NCBI RefSeq assembly: GCF_013402875.1
Contig: NZ_CP058579.1
Coordinates: 434,001-498,000 of the forward strand
DNA length: 64,000 bases
Reading direction: 5' to 3'
DNA from: Halorarum salinum
Lineage (GTDB): Archaea > Halobacteriota > Halobacteria > Halobacteriales > Haloferacaceae
The notes below the pieces were generated by a model. It worked only from the letters and a program-made list of their open reading frames with translations, did no database searches and was not told where the DNA came from. Position numbers and translations under genes: made by a program. Shown here one piece after another: positions 22,075 to 59,883 of the stretch. The stretch's first letter is position 1, and every line of letters begins with the position of its first letter.

Positions 22075-23376
22075 ATGAATGGCGGCACGCCGGTGACGAT
22101 CCTCAGCGGCGCCCTGGGGGCCGGGAAGACGACGACGCTGAACCACCTGCTCTCGTACCCCGGCGGGCGACGGATCGCCGTCCTCGTCAACGACATGGGC
22201 GAGGTGAACGTCGACGCCGCGCGAGTCGAGAACCGGGCCGACGGCGTCGCCGAACTGTCGAACGGCTGTATCTGCTGTGACCTGCGGGACGACCTCGAGG
22301 TGGCGGTGAGCCGCCTCGCCCGCGAGCGGGAGTTCGACTACCTCGTCGTCGAGTCCTCGGGCATCTCCGAGCCCGCCCCGGTCGCACGACTGTTCACCAC
22401 GGGCGCCGCCTCGGCCCCCTACGACCTCGACACGCTCGCTACGGTCGTCAACGCCCAGACGTTCCGCGACACCCTGACCGAGGGGGAGGAGGTCGAGACG
22501 GAGGACCTCCGGCGCACGCGGCCGGGGCAGGTCGAGCGCGAGGGCGGGGAGACGCGCCCGCTCTCGGAACTGCTCGTCGGCCAGGTGGAGTGTGCGGACG
22601 TGCTCCTGCTCAACAAGTGCGACCTCGTGAGCGAGGACGACCTCGCCGGCACCGAGGCGCTGCTCGACTCGCTCAACCCGGAGGCGCGCGTCGTCCGGAC
22701 CACCCACGGCGAGGTCGACCCAGGCGACCTGCTCGGCACCGGCCTGTTCGACGTTGACACCGTGAGCGAGACGGCGGCGTGGCAGCGAGCGGCCCGGCAC
22801 GCGGAGGAACACCGCGACGGAAACCGGCACGTCGACGAGGGGGGACACGGTGGCGAGGGGGGCCACGGCAACGAGGGGAACCACGAGCACGGTGGCGAGG
22901 GCGCTCACGGCCACGACCACGGGGACCACGGCCCACAGGCCGTCTACGGGGTGGACTCGTTCGTCTTCCGCGCGCGACGGCCGTTCCACCCGGAGCGGTT
23001 CGCCGCGTTCGTGCGCGACCTCCCCGACTCGGTCGTCCGATCGAAGGGGACCGTCTGGGTCGCGGGCCGGGACGAGGCGGCGCTGTTCCTCAGCCAGGCC
23101 GGCCCCTCCGTCCGGGTCGAACCGGACCGGCAGTGGATGGCGGCGATGTCCGAGTCGCGCCGGGAGATGCAGCGGCGGATGAACCCCGACGTGGAGTGGG
23201 ACGATGAGCACGGCGACCGCCGGACCGAACTCGTCGTCATCGGCCGCGGGATGGACGATGACGCGGTCCGGGCCGCGCTGGAGGACTGTCTGCTCACCGA
23301 CGACGAGTTCGAACTCGACCCGGACGGCTTCGAGAACCCGTTCCCCGGTCTCGAGGACGACCCGGTGGCGCTGTAA
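22075..23376 (+). CDS. COG0523 (CobW-like) GTPase, probable metal chaperone
   Basis: 433-aa G3E-family GTPase. The P-loop is ILSGALGAGKTTTLNHLL, the family metal motif CxCC is ELSNGCICCDLRDD, and the GTP base motif is LLNKCDLV. A His/Gly/Glu-rich insert at about residues 240-285 precedes the C-terminal CobW domain (VYGVDSFVFRARRPFHPERF). Such His-rich COG0523 proteins usually bind and deliver Zn or another transition metal; which metal is not shown, and no cobalamin genes are adjacent. Acidic inserts (EEVETEDLRR) lengthen it relative to bacterial YjiA. Confidence 0.9.
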   Translation: MNGGTPVTILSGALGAGKTTTLNHLLSYPGGRRIAVLVNDMGEVNVDAARVENRADGVAELSNGCICCDLRDDLEVAVSRLAREREFDYLVVESSGISEPAPVARLFTTGAASAPYDLDTLATVVNAQTFRDTLTEGEEVETEDLRRTRPGQVEREGGETRPLSELLVGQVECADVLLLNKCDLVSEDDLAGTEALLDSLNPEARVVRTTHGEVDPGDLLGTGLFDVDTVSETAAWQRAARHAEEHRDGNRHVDEGGHGGEGGHGNEGNHEHGGEGAHGHDHGDHGPQAVYGVDSFVFRARRPFHPERFAAFVRDLPDSVVRSKGTVWVAGRDEAALFLSQAGPSVRVEPDRQWMAAMSESRREMQRRMNPDVEWDDEHGDRRTELVVIGRGMDDDAVRAALEDCLLTDDEFELDPDGFENPFPGLEDDPVAL

Positions 23377-23441
23377 CAGGAGCGGCGCTCATCCACGTCG
23401 ACGACCCGCTCGCGGACGGGGAAACCCCGAGCGAGCGGCGT

Positions 23442-23640
23442 TTTGGCACTGACGAGCGGAGCTCGTCTTGCGGCCAGAAACCGCCGGTTTCCGGCAGCAT
23501 TACGGGAAATCGAAGATCTCCCGTCAGCAGTGGGATTCCTCCGGAATCCCACAGCCTGAACGGGTTTTGCGGGGTCCGGCCGTAGCGCGTCGGCGGAGCC
23601 GACGCGCGAGGACGTGCCCCCGCAAAGGAGGTTCGGGTTC
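23442..23640 (-). repeat. R2-type dispersed element, copy B, split by a hairpin array
   Basis: Fills the gap between two convergent genes. TTTTGGCA (23442-23449) and TGAACGGGTTTT (from 23557) are contiguous in copies at 58.9 and 59.8 kb; here 107 nt are inserted between them. The insert has hairpins at 23452-23468, 23478-23492 and 23530-23552, plus an imperfect one at about 23503-23524. A further 10-bp stem lies at 23585-23607. The outer ends GAAC (23558) and GTTC (23631) are inverted. Confidence 0.6.
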
Positions 23641-23641
23641 C

Positions 23642-23974
23642 TCAGCAGGCGCAGCCGGTCGTGGCGGCCGAGCGCTCGAACGTCATCTCCTCGCCGCAGT
23701 CGGGACAGGGCGGCGGCTCCTCGCCCTCGACGCCGGCGGCTCCACCGCCCCCGTCTCGAGGCGTCTCCGACGCCTCGTAGTCCACGTCGCGGATCCGTCG
23801 GCTGCAGTCGGTACACCAGTACGCGCCCGCGGACGTCTCCTCGCCGCCCGCGCCCCGGTTCGGCGACTGCGTCGAGGCCGCGAACGCCTCGACGATCGTG
23901 CTAACGATGCCCGTGATCTCAGGGTCGCCCCCGAGGCCCTTCAATCCACGAGCGGTCGCCCGCCGGGCACGCAC
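23642..23974 (-). CDS. small zinc-ribbon protein of unknown function
   Basis: Up to 110 aa. DPEITGIVSTIVEAFAAS forms an N-terminal helix; WCTDCSRRIRDVDY and PPCPDCGEEMTFER supply two CxxC knuckles of a zinc ribbon, and the protein ends in CAC. A Gly/Glu-rich linker separates the knuckles. No ATG is available: the frame opens with GTG at 23974, and a TTG at 23944 (giving MKGLGGDPE) is at least as plausible because the first ten codons are Arg/Ala-rich. It is followed directly by R2 element B. Function unknown. Confidence 0.6.
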   Translation of the reverse strand: MRARRATARGLKGLGGDPEITGIVSTIVEAFAASTQSPNRGAGGEETSAGAYWCTDCSRRIRDVDYEASETPRDGGGGAAGVEGEEPPPCPDCGEEMTFERSAATTGCAC

Positions 23975-38605: not shown

Positions 38606-38862
38606 CTTGCCCACTGGCGTCCACCAGTTACCTCGGAGCGAGCACCTCGGAACTCACCCTCGCTCGCGTGAGCCTCCCCAGCCGATTCCATCGCTGGGCG
38701 CTTCGCGGGACTCGTGGTTCGAGTGACGCTTTTGGCGTCTCTCGTCATCACGAAAATCTTCGATTTTCGTACGACCGCGCTCGACCCGCGTGCTCTCGTT
38801 CGCTCCTTCGTCGCTCACGAGGGCGCGCCGGCTCGCTCATCCCTCGCACGCGTGTGCTCGCG
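38606..38862 (+). repeat. R1-type dispersed element, copy c
   Basis: Begins with CTTGCCCACTG..GTCCACCAG..ACCTCGGAGC, like copies at 1953 and (inverted) 12212. The core 38699-38804 is nearly identical to 43473-43368 on the opposite strand (about 101 of 106 positions by eye). It has an imperfect hairpin near 38720-38742 and a perfect one (cgaaaatc-ttc-gattttcg) at about 38751-38769. The rest of the 38294-39108 gap shows no gene. Confidence 0.65.
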
Positions 38863-43367: not shown

Positions 43368-43535
43368 AGCGAACGAGAGCACGCGGGTCGAGCGCAGTCG
43401 TTCGAAAATCGAAGATTTTCGTGATGACGAGAGACGCCACAGGCGTCTCTCGAACCACGAGTCCCGCGAAGCGAGCACACGCGCGCGAGGGACGAGCACC
43501 GCAGTGGAGCGAGCAATGCGAGCGACCGAGGAGCA
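43368..43535 (-). repeat. R1-type dispersed element, copy d (inverted)
   Basis: In the gap between the convergent ligA and ABC permease genes. 43368-43473 matches 38804-38699 on the opposite strand. Hairpins: cgaaaatc-gaa-gattttcg (43403-43421) and gagagacgcc-aca-ggcgtctctc (about 43429-43451), both perfect. Beyond 43473 the sequence resembles the minus strand of copy a (tgctc.tccctcgcgcgc). 43536-43689 shows no gene. Confidence 0.65.
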
Positions 43536-57939: not shown

Positions 57940-58263
57940 ACGCACACGCCGGCGGGCGCGGTGGTTAAATCTTCTCACACGGTCGACCCGCGGGGTTCCG
58001 TTCACGTCCCCGTCGTCCCGATCGGGACGACGGAGGGTCCGACCGTCGGGAGCGCTGCCGGCGGCAACACTCGGGGCTCGGGGAGTGACGCGGTGCGGTC
58101 GACCGCAGCGGCGTCGCCACGCACGGATCCGCGATCCCGGCCGCTTCGACGAACGACGATTCCTCCATCGTCAGTCGTGCGGCGAACCGCCGGAGATCGA
58201 ACGTCTCGACCCCGCTATTGCCCCCAGTAGGCTTTTGTATCGCCATCGCGTCCAAACGTACCC
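57940..58263. other. divergent gap with 24-bp perfect palindrome
   Basis: Lies between the EtfD-like gene and the 58264 gene. A perfect palindrome at 58010-58033 (half-site ccgtcgtcccga) sits about 70 nt upstream of the EtfD-like start, just outside its TATA box (57963-57971). A ttttgtatcg box at 58231-58240 serves the 58264 gene. No gene is convincing; a 96-codon Arg/Pro-rich frame on the minus strand is probably chance. Confidence 0.5.
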
Positions 58264-58863
58264 ATGGACGAGAAGACGGCCGAGCTCCGGGACATCTTCA
58301 TCGACGCCACCGGCTCCGACACGGTCACCGAGAGCCAGGAGGAGTCGCCCGGCTCGCTGGCGGACGAGCAGGGGGAAGACGGGGAGCGGATCCGCGAACT
58401 CGTCGCCGCGATGCGCGAGCGCTACGAGTTCGACTCGGGGCTCGACGACGAGACCCTGGAGGCGGTCGTCCGACGGTATCACGACGGCGACGACGACGCG
58501 ACCATCGCCACGGCGCTCGACCTCGACGAGGGGACCGTGTTCGACGCGCGGATGGACCTCCACCTCGTCCGGGAGTCGGACCGCGACGCCCCGTTCGGGA
58601 TGGAGCTCCTCCGGTCGATGCACGTCGAGGACTTCTCGACGGAGGAGATCGCGAACCGGCTCGGGAGCGACGAGGCGACGGTGACCCACTACGTCTCGGT
58701 CGTCGATGCCGACCTGGAGTCGACGCGGGCGAACGACCGCTTCCGCGACGAGTTCGCGGAGTTGCTCGCGGACGCGGACCTCTCGGGCGGGCTCACCGAC
58801 GAGGCCCACGAGGACGGCCTGCGGGAGGCGACCGAGGACATGGAGACCGACGTTTCCTTCTAG
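58264..58863 (+). CDS. conditioned-medium-induced protein 4-like, DNA-binding-like repeats
   Basis: 199 aa acidic protein. MDEKTAELRDIFIDATGSDT opens a haloarchaeal family that I recall as conditioned-medium-induced protein 4. Two helix-turn-helix-like units are visible: TLEAVVRRYHDGDDDATIAT..LDLDEGTV and DFSTEEIANRLGSDEATVTHY, resembling sigma-region-4 folds. The C terminus is acidic. A ttttgtatc box about 28 nt upstream fits a leaderless start. Role in growth phase or quorum response is only reported for relatives, and the family name is from memory. Confidence 0.7.
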   Translation: MDEKTAELRDIFIDATGSDTVTESQEESPGSLADEQGEDGERIRELVAAMRERYEFDSGLDDETLEAVVRRYHDGDDDATIATALDLDEGTVFDARMDLHLVRESDRDAPFGMELLRSMHVEDFSTEEIANRLGSDEATVTHYVSVVDADLESTRANDRFRDEFAELLADADLSGGLTDEAHEDGLREATEDMETDVSF

Positions 58864-58864
58864 A

Positions 58865-58951
58865 GAACCTCTTTTGCGGGGGCATGTCCTCGCGCGTCGG
58901 CGGAGCCGACGCGCTGCGGCCAGACCCACGCAAAACCCGTTCATGCCAAAA
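58865..58951 (+). repeat. R2-type dispersed element, copy A
   Basis: Begins two bases after the stop of the 58264 gene. GAACCTCTTTTGCGGGGGC and CGCAAAACCCGTTCATGCC form inverted ends (GAAC...GTTC), enclosing a perfect 10-bp stem (gcgcgtcggc-gga-gccgacgcgc, about 58891-58913). The same design is found at 23.6 kb and 59.8 kb. It follows directly on a stop codon, as in copy B. Confidence 0.65.
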
Positions 58952-59139: not shown

Positions 59140-59607
59140 CTACTCCTCTATCAGTAATTCCGTATCACCATCGTAGATCTCCACGATGAGGTTAGAGCCC
59201 ATTCGGAGGTCATACTCCTCGATCTGGACTGGATACGTGGATTCGAATCCGCTATCTCCTTCGATACGGAGTTCGTATTGACCTGTCGTGTCAATCTCCG
59301 TTTCGACGGTTTCGTGTTCTCCCTGTGAAACCTGCACTTCTCCCTCGGAAACCACCGTTCCTTCAGACATGATGGAAAAGTGAACGGCTACGTCCGCAGA
59401 AGATTCATTACCGAACGCGAGCATGATTTTCTCCGCGGACGTTCGGGTTTCAGCCGATTCTGTTGAGCCCATCGGTGTTGGAGAGTTAGCCCCTGTGTCG
59501 GTAGGAGTGGATGATGGGTCTCGTTGTGCCAAGCACCCACCACCGGTTACTAGACCAAATGCGGTGGCTCCTTTGAGGAGGGTTTTACGACGAGTGAGCG
59601 GAGGCAT
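59140..59607 (-). CDS. hypothetical lipoprotein, likely horizontally acquired
   Basis: 155 aa. TRRKTLLKGATAFGLVTGGG followed by C is a Tat signal with lipobox. A Ser/Thr-rich linker follows (DPSSTPTDTGANSPTPMGST), then a beta-sandwich-like domain of ~90 residues (IMLAFGNESSADVAVHFSIM; TGQYELRIEGDSGFESTYPV). The gene is distinctly AT-richer than its neighbours, and codon use differs accordingly. It is flanked by R2 elements A and C, which suggests insertion of a foreign segment. Function unknown. Confidence 0.7.
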   Translation of the reverse strand: MPPLTRRKTLLKGATAFGLVTGGGCLAQRDPSSTPTDTGANSPTPMGSTESAETRTSAEKIMLAFGNESSADVAVHFSIMSEGTVVSEGEVQVSQGEHETVETEIDTTGQYELRIEGDSGFESTYPVQIEEYDLRMGSNLIVEIYDGDTELLIEE

Positions 59608-59806: not shown

Positions 59807-59883
59807 ATTTTGGCATGAACGGGTTTACCGGGGTTCGACGAGCGAGCGAAGCGAGCGAGGAGGACCCCGGCTAAGAGAGGTTC
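59807..59883 (-). repeat. R2-type dispersed element, copy C
   Basis: Shares ATTTTGGCATGAACGGGTTT with the inverted end of copy A, then a different stem: accgggg/ccccggt flanking a cctcgctcgc-ttc-gctcgctcg hairpin, then GAACCTCT on the minus strand. The upstream sequence (taccgcgagcgag) also matches copy A. It lies 40 nt upstream of the Cas4-like gene, in the gap 59608-59922, which has no gene otherwise. Confidence 0.55.

Follow-up and report, generated by a model that had tools for sequence, protein, structure and literature searches.

A 64,000-nt stretch of Halorarum salinum DNA (hereafter the window) contains a short motif that is continuous at two places and split by a chain of hairpins at a third, which raises the question of whether one element has landed within another or whether the hairpins belong to a larger, modular element. 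The word TTTTGGCA occurs three times in the window (23441+, 58944- and 59808+) against 0.10 expected, and exact matches to TGAACGGGTTT are found at 23557+, 58933- and 59816+. In copies A (59808-59826, plus strand) and C (58933-58951, minus strand) the two words are contiguous, as the first-pass annotation had reported: the joined 19-mer, TTTTGGCATGAACGGGTTT, is exact at both, occurs nowhere else in the window and was found in none of 100 shuffles. Copy C, comprising the core and P2, is uninterrupted over 58865-58951 (minus strand) and its right end is 1 nt from the stop codon of a plus-strand ORF (58231-58863). Copy A, with the core and most of P2, is uninterrupted over 59808-59875 (plus strand). 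These two copies face apart, and the sequence between them (59140-59607) is AT-richer, carries a small minus-strand ORF and may be a later insertion. In copy B the halves of the motif lie 108 nt apart (23449-23556); the 107 nt (23450-23556) first given omitted the first base.

Copy B is flanked on the left by a CobW-type GTPase gene that converges on it (ORF 22075-23376, plus strand; Pfam PF02492, E 4.5e-49, and PF07683). On the right is a minus-strand ORF (23642-23974, gene X), whose stop codon is 7 nt from the end of the copy. Gene X encodes a small CxxC protein with no match in Pfam or NCBIfam, which we call zinc-ribbon-like from our reading of its cysteine pairs. Between the two genes lie, in plus-strand order, hairpin P1 (23406-23438; located by folding and equivalently positioned in other aligned copies), the conserved linker word TTTTGGCA (23441-23448; located by word search), the insert, a second conserved linker word, TGAACGGG, at the foot of P2 (23557-23564), and hairpin P2 itself (23558-23634, GAACGGGTTTTGC...GCAAAGGAGGTTC; located by folding and copy comparison). 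Folded alone with DNA parameters, the insert gives four hairpins, each with a loop of 3 nt, on either strand (z -6.6 on the plus strand and -9.0 on the minus strand, equalled by 0/200 shuffles on either), and its earlier description as a chain of short hairpins was therefore accurate. The wider region 23391-23660 also folds better than its shuffles (z -6.5 and -7.3). The insert consists of two hairpin-pair cassettes, which are present or absent as units. Cassette M1 (23449-23499, plus strand, 51 nt) ends in GCA, is confined to the 108-nt state and holds hairpins 1 (23451-23467) and 2 (23469-23499). Cassette M2 (23500-23556, plus strand, 57 nt) holds hairpins 3 (23502-23524) and 4 (core 23530-23552). 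All four hairpins were assigned from the DNA fold, and those of M2 also from stem pairing in related copies.

Copy B's insert is not private, as the same four-hairpin insert recurs at the same spot in other copies. In the genome of the window (G000) the joined word has 14 exact and two near copies (reversed control, 0), and a search with the copy B sequence found six more copies in which the insert is equivalently placed and 80-92% identical over the matched stretch, a recurrence beyond what chance would give. Among 22 parsed G000 copies, 15 have no insert and seven have the four-hairpin insert of 108 nt, in all seven between P1 and P2. The corresponding counts in two further genomes of the genus were six without an insert and three with 57 nt in G001 (leaving out the L061 plus-strand copy, CTTTGGCA, which the pattern does not match), and two without an insert, five with 57 nt and two with 108 nt in G002. 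The 57-nt and 108-nt states are unequally distributed between G000 and G001 (Fisher p 0.008). Gap sizes surveyed at 96 candidate sites in the fetched loci fell at 7-9 (58 sites), 63-66 (22), 116 (5) and 124 (1), the remainder being one mis-parsed site and nine that lack the left word, some of which are chance matches within genes. Hairpins therefore come in pairs: none, two or four.

Side by side, the copies follow one order: P1, then C or G followed by TTTTGGCA, then 0, 2 or 4 hairpins, TGAACGGG, P2 with TTTT/AAAA near its base, and GAGGTTC. Read from the gene, this becomes a stop codon, a few bases, GAACCTC TTTT, P2, AAAA CCCGTTCATG, 0, 2 or 4 hairpins, CCAAAAG and P1. M2 has the form TTA-hairpin 3-TCAGCAGT-hairpin 4-ACAGCA, and the 108-nt state is M1 placed before M2; the 124 gap (L084) holds four hairpins built from two M2-like pairs. 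Each cassette step ends in GCA in most copies, the final step of copy B being GCC. At one locus (L094) unrelated sequence ending CTGAGGATTTCAACAAAGCC adjoins GCATGAACGGG, and an insertion sequence has apparently split the element at GCA.

The first-pass annotation had read the arrangement in copy B as one element type landing in, or growing within, another. Part of that reading stands: uninterrupted orthologues exist in sister species, so the motif is truly interruptible, and a different two-hairpin cassette is found inside P2 at loci L081, L163, L261 and L264. A transposon-like landing is not supported. Place, size and sequence are alike in the seven G000 copies, the lengths change in hairpin-pair steps (0, 57 and 108 nt), and the landing reading is supported only in part because the insert has no terminal inverted repeats. 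Compared by eye, the ends of the 108-nt and 57-nt inserts are CTGACGAG or TTACGGG on one side and CACAGCA or similar on the other, with terminal inverted repeats in neither size class. The proposed inspection of the junctions for a target-site duplication showed that most copies have GCA or GCAT on each side of the insert, but the word also stands between hairpins 3 and 4; the apparent duplication is probably just a linker that recurs throughout the hairpin array. The cassette found inside P2 (TTCGAGAG..CTCTCG TGATGA CGAGAG..CTCTCGAA) occupies the same internal loop of P2 at its four loci, which belong to different genomes. Its relatives in the window, of the form TTCG-hairpin-TGATGA-hairpin-CGAA, are a two-hairpin cassette at 43390-43460 (plus strand), which we take to be the R1 type of the first-pass annotation, and a second at 38715-38772 (minus strand).

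A narrower version of the landing idea, in which the insert of copy B is itself a small mobile repeat, separate from the element and comparable to SMR-A of Haloquadratum, appears highly improbable. Its size (near 110 nt), its lack of coding capacity and the different hairpin pair inside P2 at four loci are what such a repeat would offer, and SMR-A is said, in the accessible part of PMC3119063, to insert into palindromes of other elements with no target duplication. One solitary M2-like pair also exists. Against this, the ends of the insert are not inverted repeats, it sits in a linker and not in a palindrome, its place is identical in seven copies, hairpins occur only in even numbers, and the insert is divisible into two cassettes, one of which (M2) is common elsewhere by itself. 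The solitary pair (L045; G000 C1:2668605-2668662) lies within another hairpin chain and has neither TTTTGGCA nor TGAACGGG.

The position of the element relative to genes was determined for 78 different copies in which the right arm is intact (a requirement that leaves out copy A, L028, L031, L081 and L084). Loci were fetched by element sequence and not by gene, from among the matches listed per search, and the window served to train the codon model used to call the genes around them. To the right, the nearest gene is directed towards the element in 73/78 copies and away from it in three, with none called in two, while the left-hand neighbour is effectively random (plus in 39, minus in 38, none in one). 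In 64 of the 73 the stop codon is -2 to +18 nt from the end of the element, mostly -2 to +7, and in 14 copies, at -2, the stop codon is completed by the element itself (T|GAACC). Convergent neighbours can each have their own element, as do PhoU and a CDC48-type gene in G001, G002 and G092. A place behind a stop codon is lacking or doubtful for copy A, which lies upstream of a plus-strand ORF, its G001 relative L062, L070, L167 and other near-identical Halolamina/Natronolimnohabitans copies. Tailed genes, identified by family name, include PhoU, CarA (carbamoyl-phosphate synthase) and aCPSF1, together with AAA-domain ATPases, identified by domain, which we take to be CDC48-type. In some species the element follows the gene for aCPSF1, the termination nuclease of archaea (L144, by family name; L149 and L172, by their like C-terminal sequence).

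These places are held across species. Gene clustering used the 64 of the 78 copies that had a listed genome handle and, no more than 60 nt away, a gene directed towards the element, and gave 28 gene clusters, 18 of which (54 copies) are occupied in at least two genomes. Six clusters are common to G000 and G001 and seven to G000 and G002; we estimate that far below one would be shared if copies were random among ~4000 genes. Sequence does not track place: P2 identity is 0.805 at orthologous sites, 0.819 between copies within one genome and 0.772 otherwise. Nor are insert states fixed, with 12 of the 18 shared clusters mixed and six all short. Places are shared across genera, while sequence and insert state appear to have been swapped from copy to copy. 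The comparison with sister species that had been proposed for copy B yielded uninterrupted orthologues at other loci but not at B's own. There the only sister copy found is a degraded element in the two-hairpin state behind the orthologous gene in G001 (L248), and G002 has no orthologue of B's gene at the threshold used. Homologues of B's gene were read at 16 loci among 36 genomes, and the element core is absent at B's site in 14/14 outgroup loci read. One outgroup match to the word CTGCTGACGG (L239) was rejected as coding sequence at a stop codon.

Beyond the genus, the element pattern was found in 16/148 genomes and 4/28 genera of the family; BLAST likewise gave 16/148, a slightly different set. 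Class-wide, the pattern occurred in 11/292 genomes, all of the same family. A 20-mer scan of named genomes returned 17 stretches, 14 of them haloarchaeal, with carriers including Halobaculum, Halolamina, Halobonum, Halorarius, Natronolimnohabitans and Salinarchaeum. The bacterial matches (L159, L160 and L165) are without hairpin arms and were taken as chance, as were 54 IMG/VR stretches with the 15-mer GCATGAACGGGTTTT, because none has the P2 right arm. No plasmid matched by blastn. A wider plan, in which a T-run near the stop codon pairs with an A-run across a hairpin, was examined at PhoU by direct stem count: a TTT-hairpin-AAA tail no more than 45 nt from the stop codon is present in 14/30 orthologous loci (the best-scoring 30 of 108 genomes with a PhoU match), each such tail being matched by at most 3/200 shuffles; the other 16/30 fail this test. 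Motif words are present in 10/30 loci, and three of the 14 passing loci are in genera without them (g11 and g18).

The near-identical copies L157, L158, L161, L162, L164 and L167 (Halolamina, Natronolimnohabitans and Salinarchaeum) have a different P1 and places mostly not behind stop codons; these copies look recently mobile. No transposase was recognised by eye beside the element at five mobile-looking Halolamina/Natronolimnohabitans loci. Near-identical copies in haloarchaea so distant, many copies per genome and the empty outgroup sites at B's locus are all as expected if the whole element were a selfish mobile repeat, without any function for the host, that inserts beside stop codons and persists there only because it is tolerated. 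However, tolerance predicts varied distance and orientation, where the observed orientation is 73 to 3 and the distance mostly -2 to +7 nt, and no transposase was found with the ends of the element. Y1 transposase (PF01797) is present in 103/148 genomes of the family but in none of G000, G001 and G002, so neither REP/RAYT nor IS200/IS605 activity drives the element in this genus now. We regard the selfish repeat as somewhat unlikely.

The hairpins could in principle act as DNA or as RNA. Across 25 modules of related copies, 453/475 stem cells of hairpins 3-4 are Watson-Crick, with several double changes. Template switching can by itself keep a palindrome perfect, with no need for selection. 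Counted on the plus strand, G-T against A-C mismatches are 42:32 in P2, 7:8 in P1 and 9:9 in hairpins 3-4 (pooled 58:49, p 0.44), giving no RNA-strand bias. Two copies, L004 and L020, have an inverted P2 interior, and loops are seen in either orientation. This balance and the inversions fit single-stranded DNA hairpins repaired by template switching and give no support for an RNA fold. A structured 3' UTR RNA, serving as a regulator, processing signal or stabiliser with its fold under selection, would account for stems that change on both sides yet stay paired, as where the P2 foot GAAC/GTTC becomes CGAC/GTCG in G107 and G006 (by eye), and for the fixed orientation relative to the gene. Selection on such a fold is argued against by the absence of RNA-strand bias, G-U mismatches exceeding A-C on neither strand; the inverted interiors, the flipped loops and the fact that palindromes can be maintained without selection also count against it. 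Rfam gave no match at the gathering score in the window, the best sub-threshold E at copy B being 0.049. Overall, we consider a selected RNA quite improbable.

Taken together, we are moderately confident that copy B is the long form of a BIME-like modular hairpin 3' tail with exchangeable cassettes and a putative role at transcript ends. In such a tail, cassettes would be gained and lost when copies exchange sequence (gene conversion), could be lost during replication by deletion between the GCA words that flank the hairpins, and the hairpins may be maintained at the DNA level through template switching in single strands. The element probably acts at transcript ends, where the T-run behind the stop codon and structured DNA or RNA might form a boundary that would stop or pause polymerases or shield the 3' end. 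In Haloferax volcanii, according to the accessible part of PMC7237163, intergenic ends show T-runs, 503 sites were found to have hairpins upstream, and the 3' UTR has a median length of 97 nt up to its first end, all of which makes a transcript end inside the element plausible. Counting against a terminator-like role, the T-run is only four long and precedes P2, and no classical intrinsic terminator (G+C-rich hairpin followed by at least five T) was found at copy B in 23300-23700.

How transcripts end in dense, GC-rich archaeal genomes is still being worked out, and repeats tied to stop codons amount to natural experiments, as the same gene is found with 0, 2 or 4 hairpins across species. Here conservation of place can be told apart from that of sequence, so that exchange among dispersed copies becomes testable, and the genes with such tails include that of the termination nuclease itself. 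A bolder and rather doubtful possibility is that 3'-end tails hold their place behind the same genes across genera, evolve in concert within each genome and spread, with no detectable transposase, in a single orientation immediately after stop codons. If true, copying would be directed either by transcript ends, perhaps with an RNA or an R-loop as intermediary, or by the homology that terminators share. A literature search found no such way of spreading for archaea.

The literature search also returned no recognised description of such an element family, and the nearest comparisons are with three known systems. REP and BIME sequences often lie at gene ends. As far as the accessible descriptions go, our element resembles them in being an extragenic mosaic of several palindromic units and short conserved words in variable combinations, with many copies per genome. 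It differs from them in being archaeal, in having a few tens of copies, which follow stop codons in a strict orientation, in using hairpin pairs as optional cassettes and in lacking a Y1 transposase in the genus. REP sequences have a GTAG or CGTC tag at the hairpin foot (PMC3733652, accessible part). To judge from the available text of PMC3119063, the PATEs and SMR-A of Haloquadratum walsbyi are similar in being haloarchaeal, short and non-coding, with near-terminal palindromes, internal deletions between repeats and repeats inside repeats. Unlike those elements, ours shows no tie to IS605-type ends in this genus, where Y1 transposase is absent from all three genomes; its insert is without inverted ends and lies between palindromes, not inside near-terminal palindromes of IS605-type elements, at places common to several species. 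With haloarchaeal terminators, as described in the accessible part of PMC7237163, it shares a T-run close behind the stop codon and hairpins of the kind found at some Haloferax volcanii 3' ends, but its T-run is T4 only and lies ahead of the hairpin, and the element as a whole is multi-hairpin, repeated and modular.
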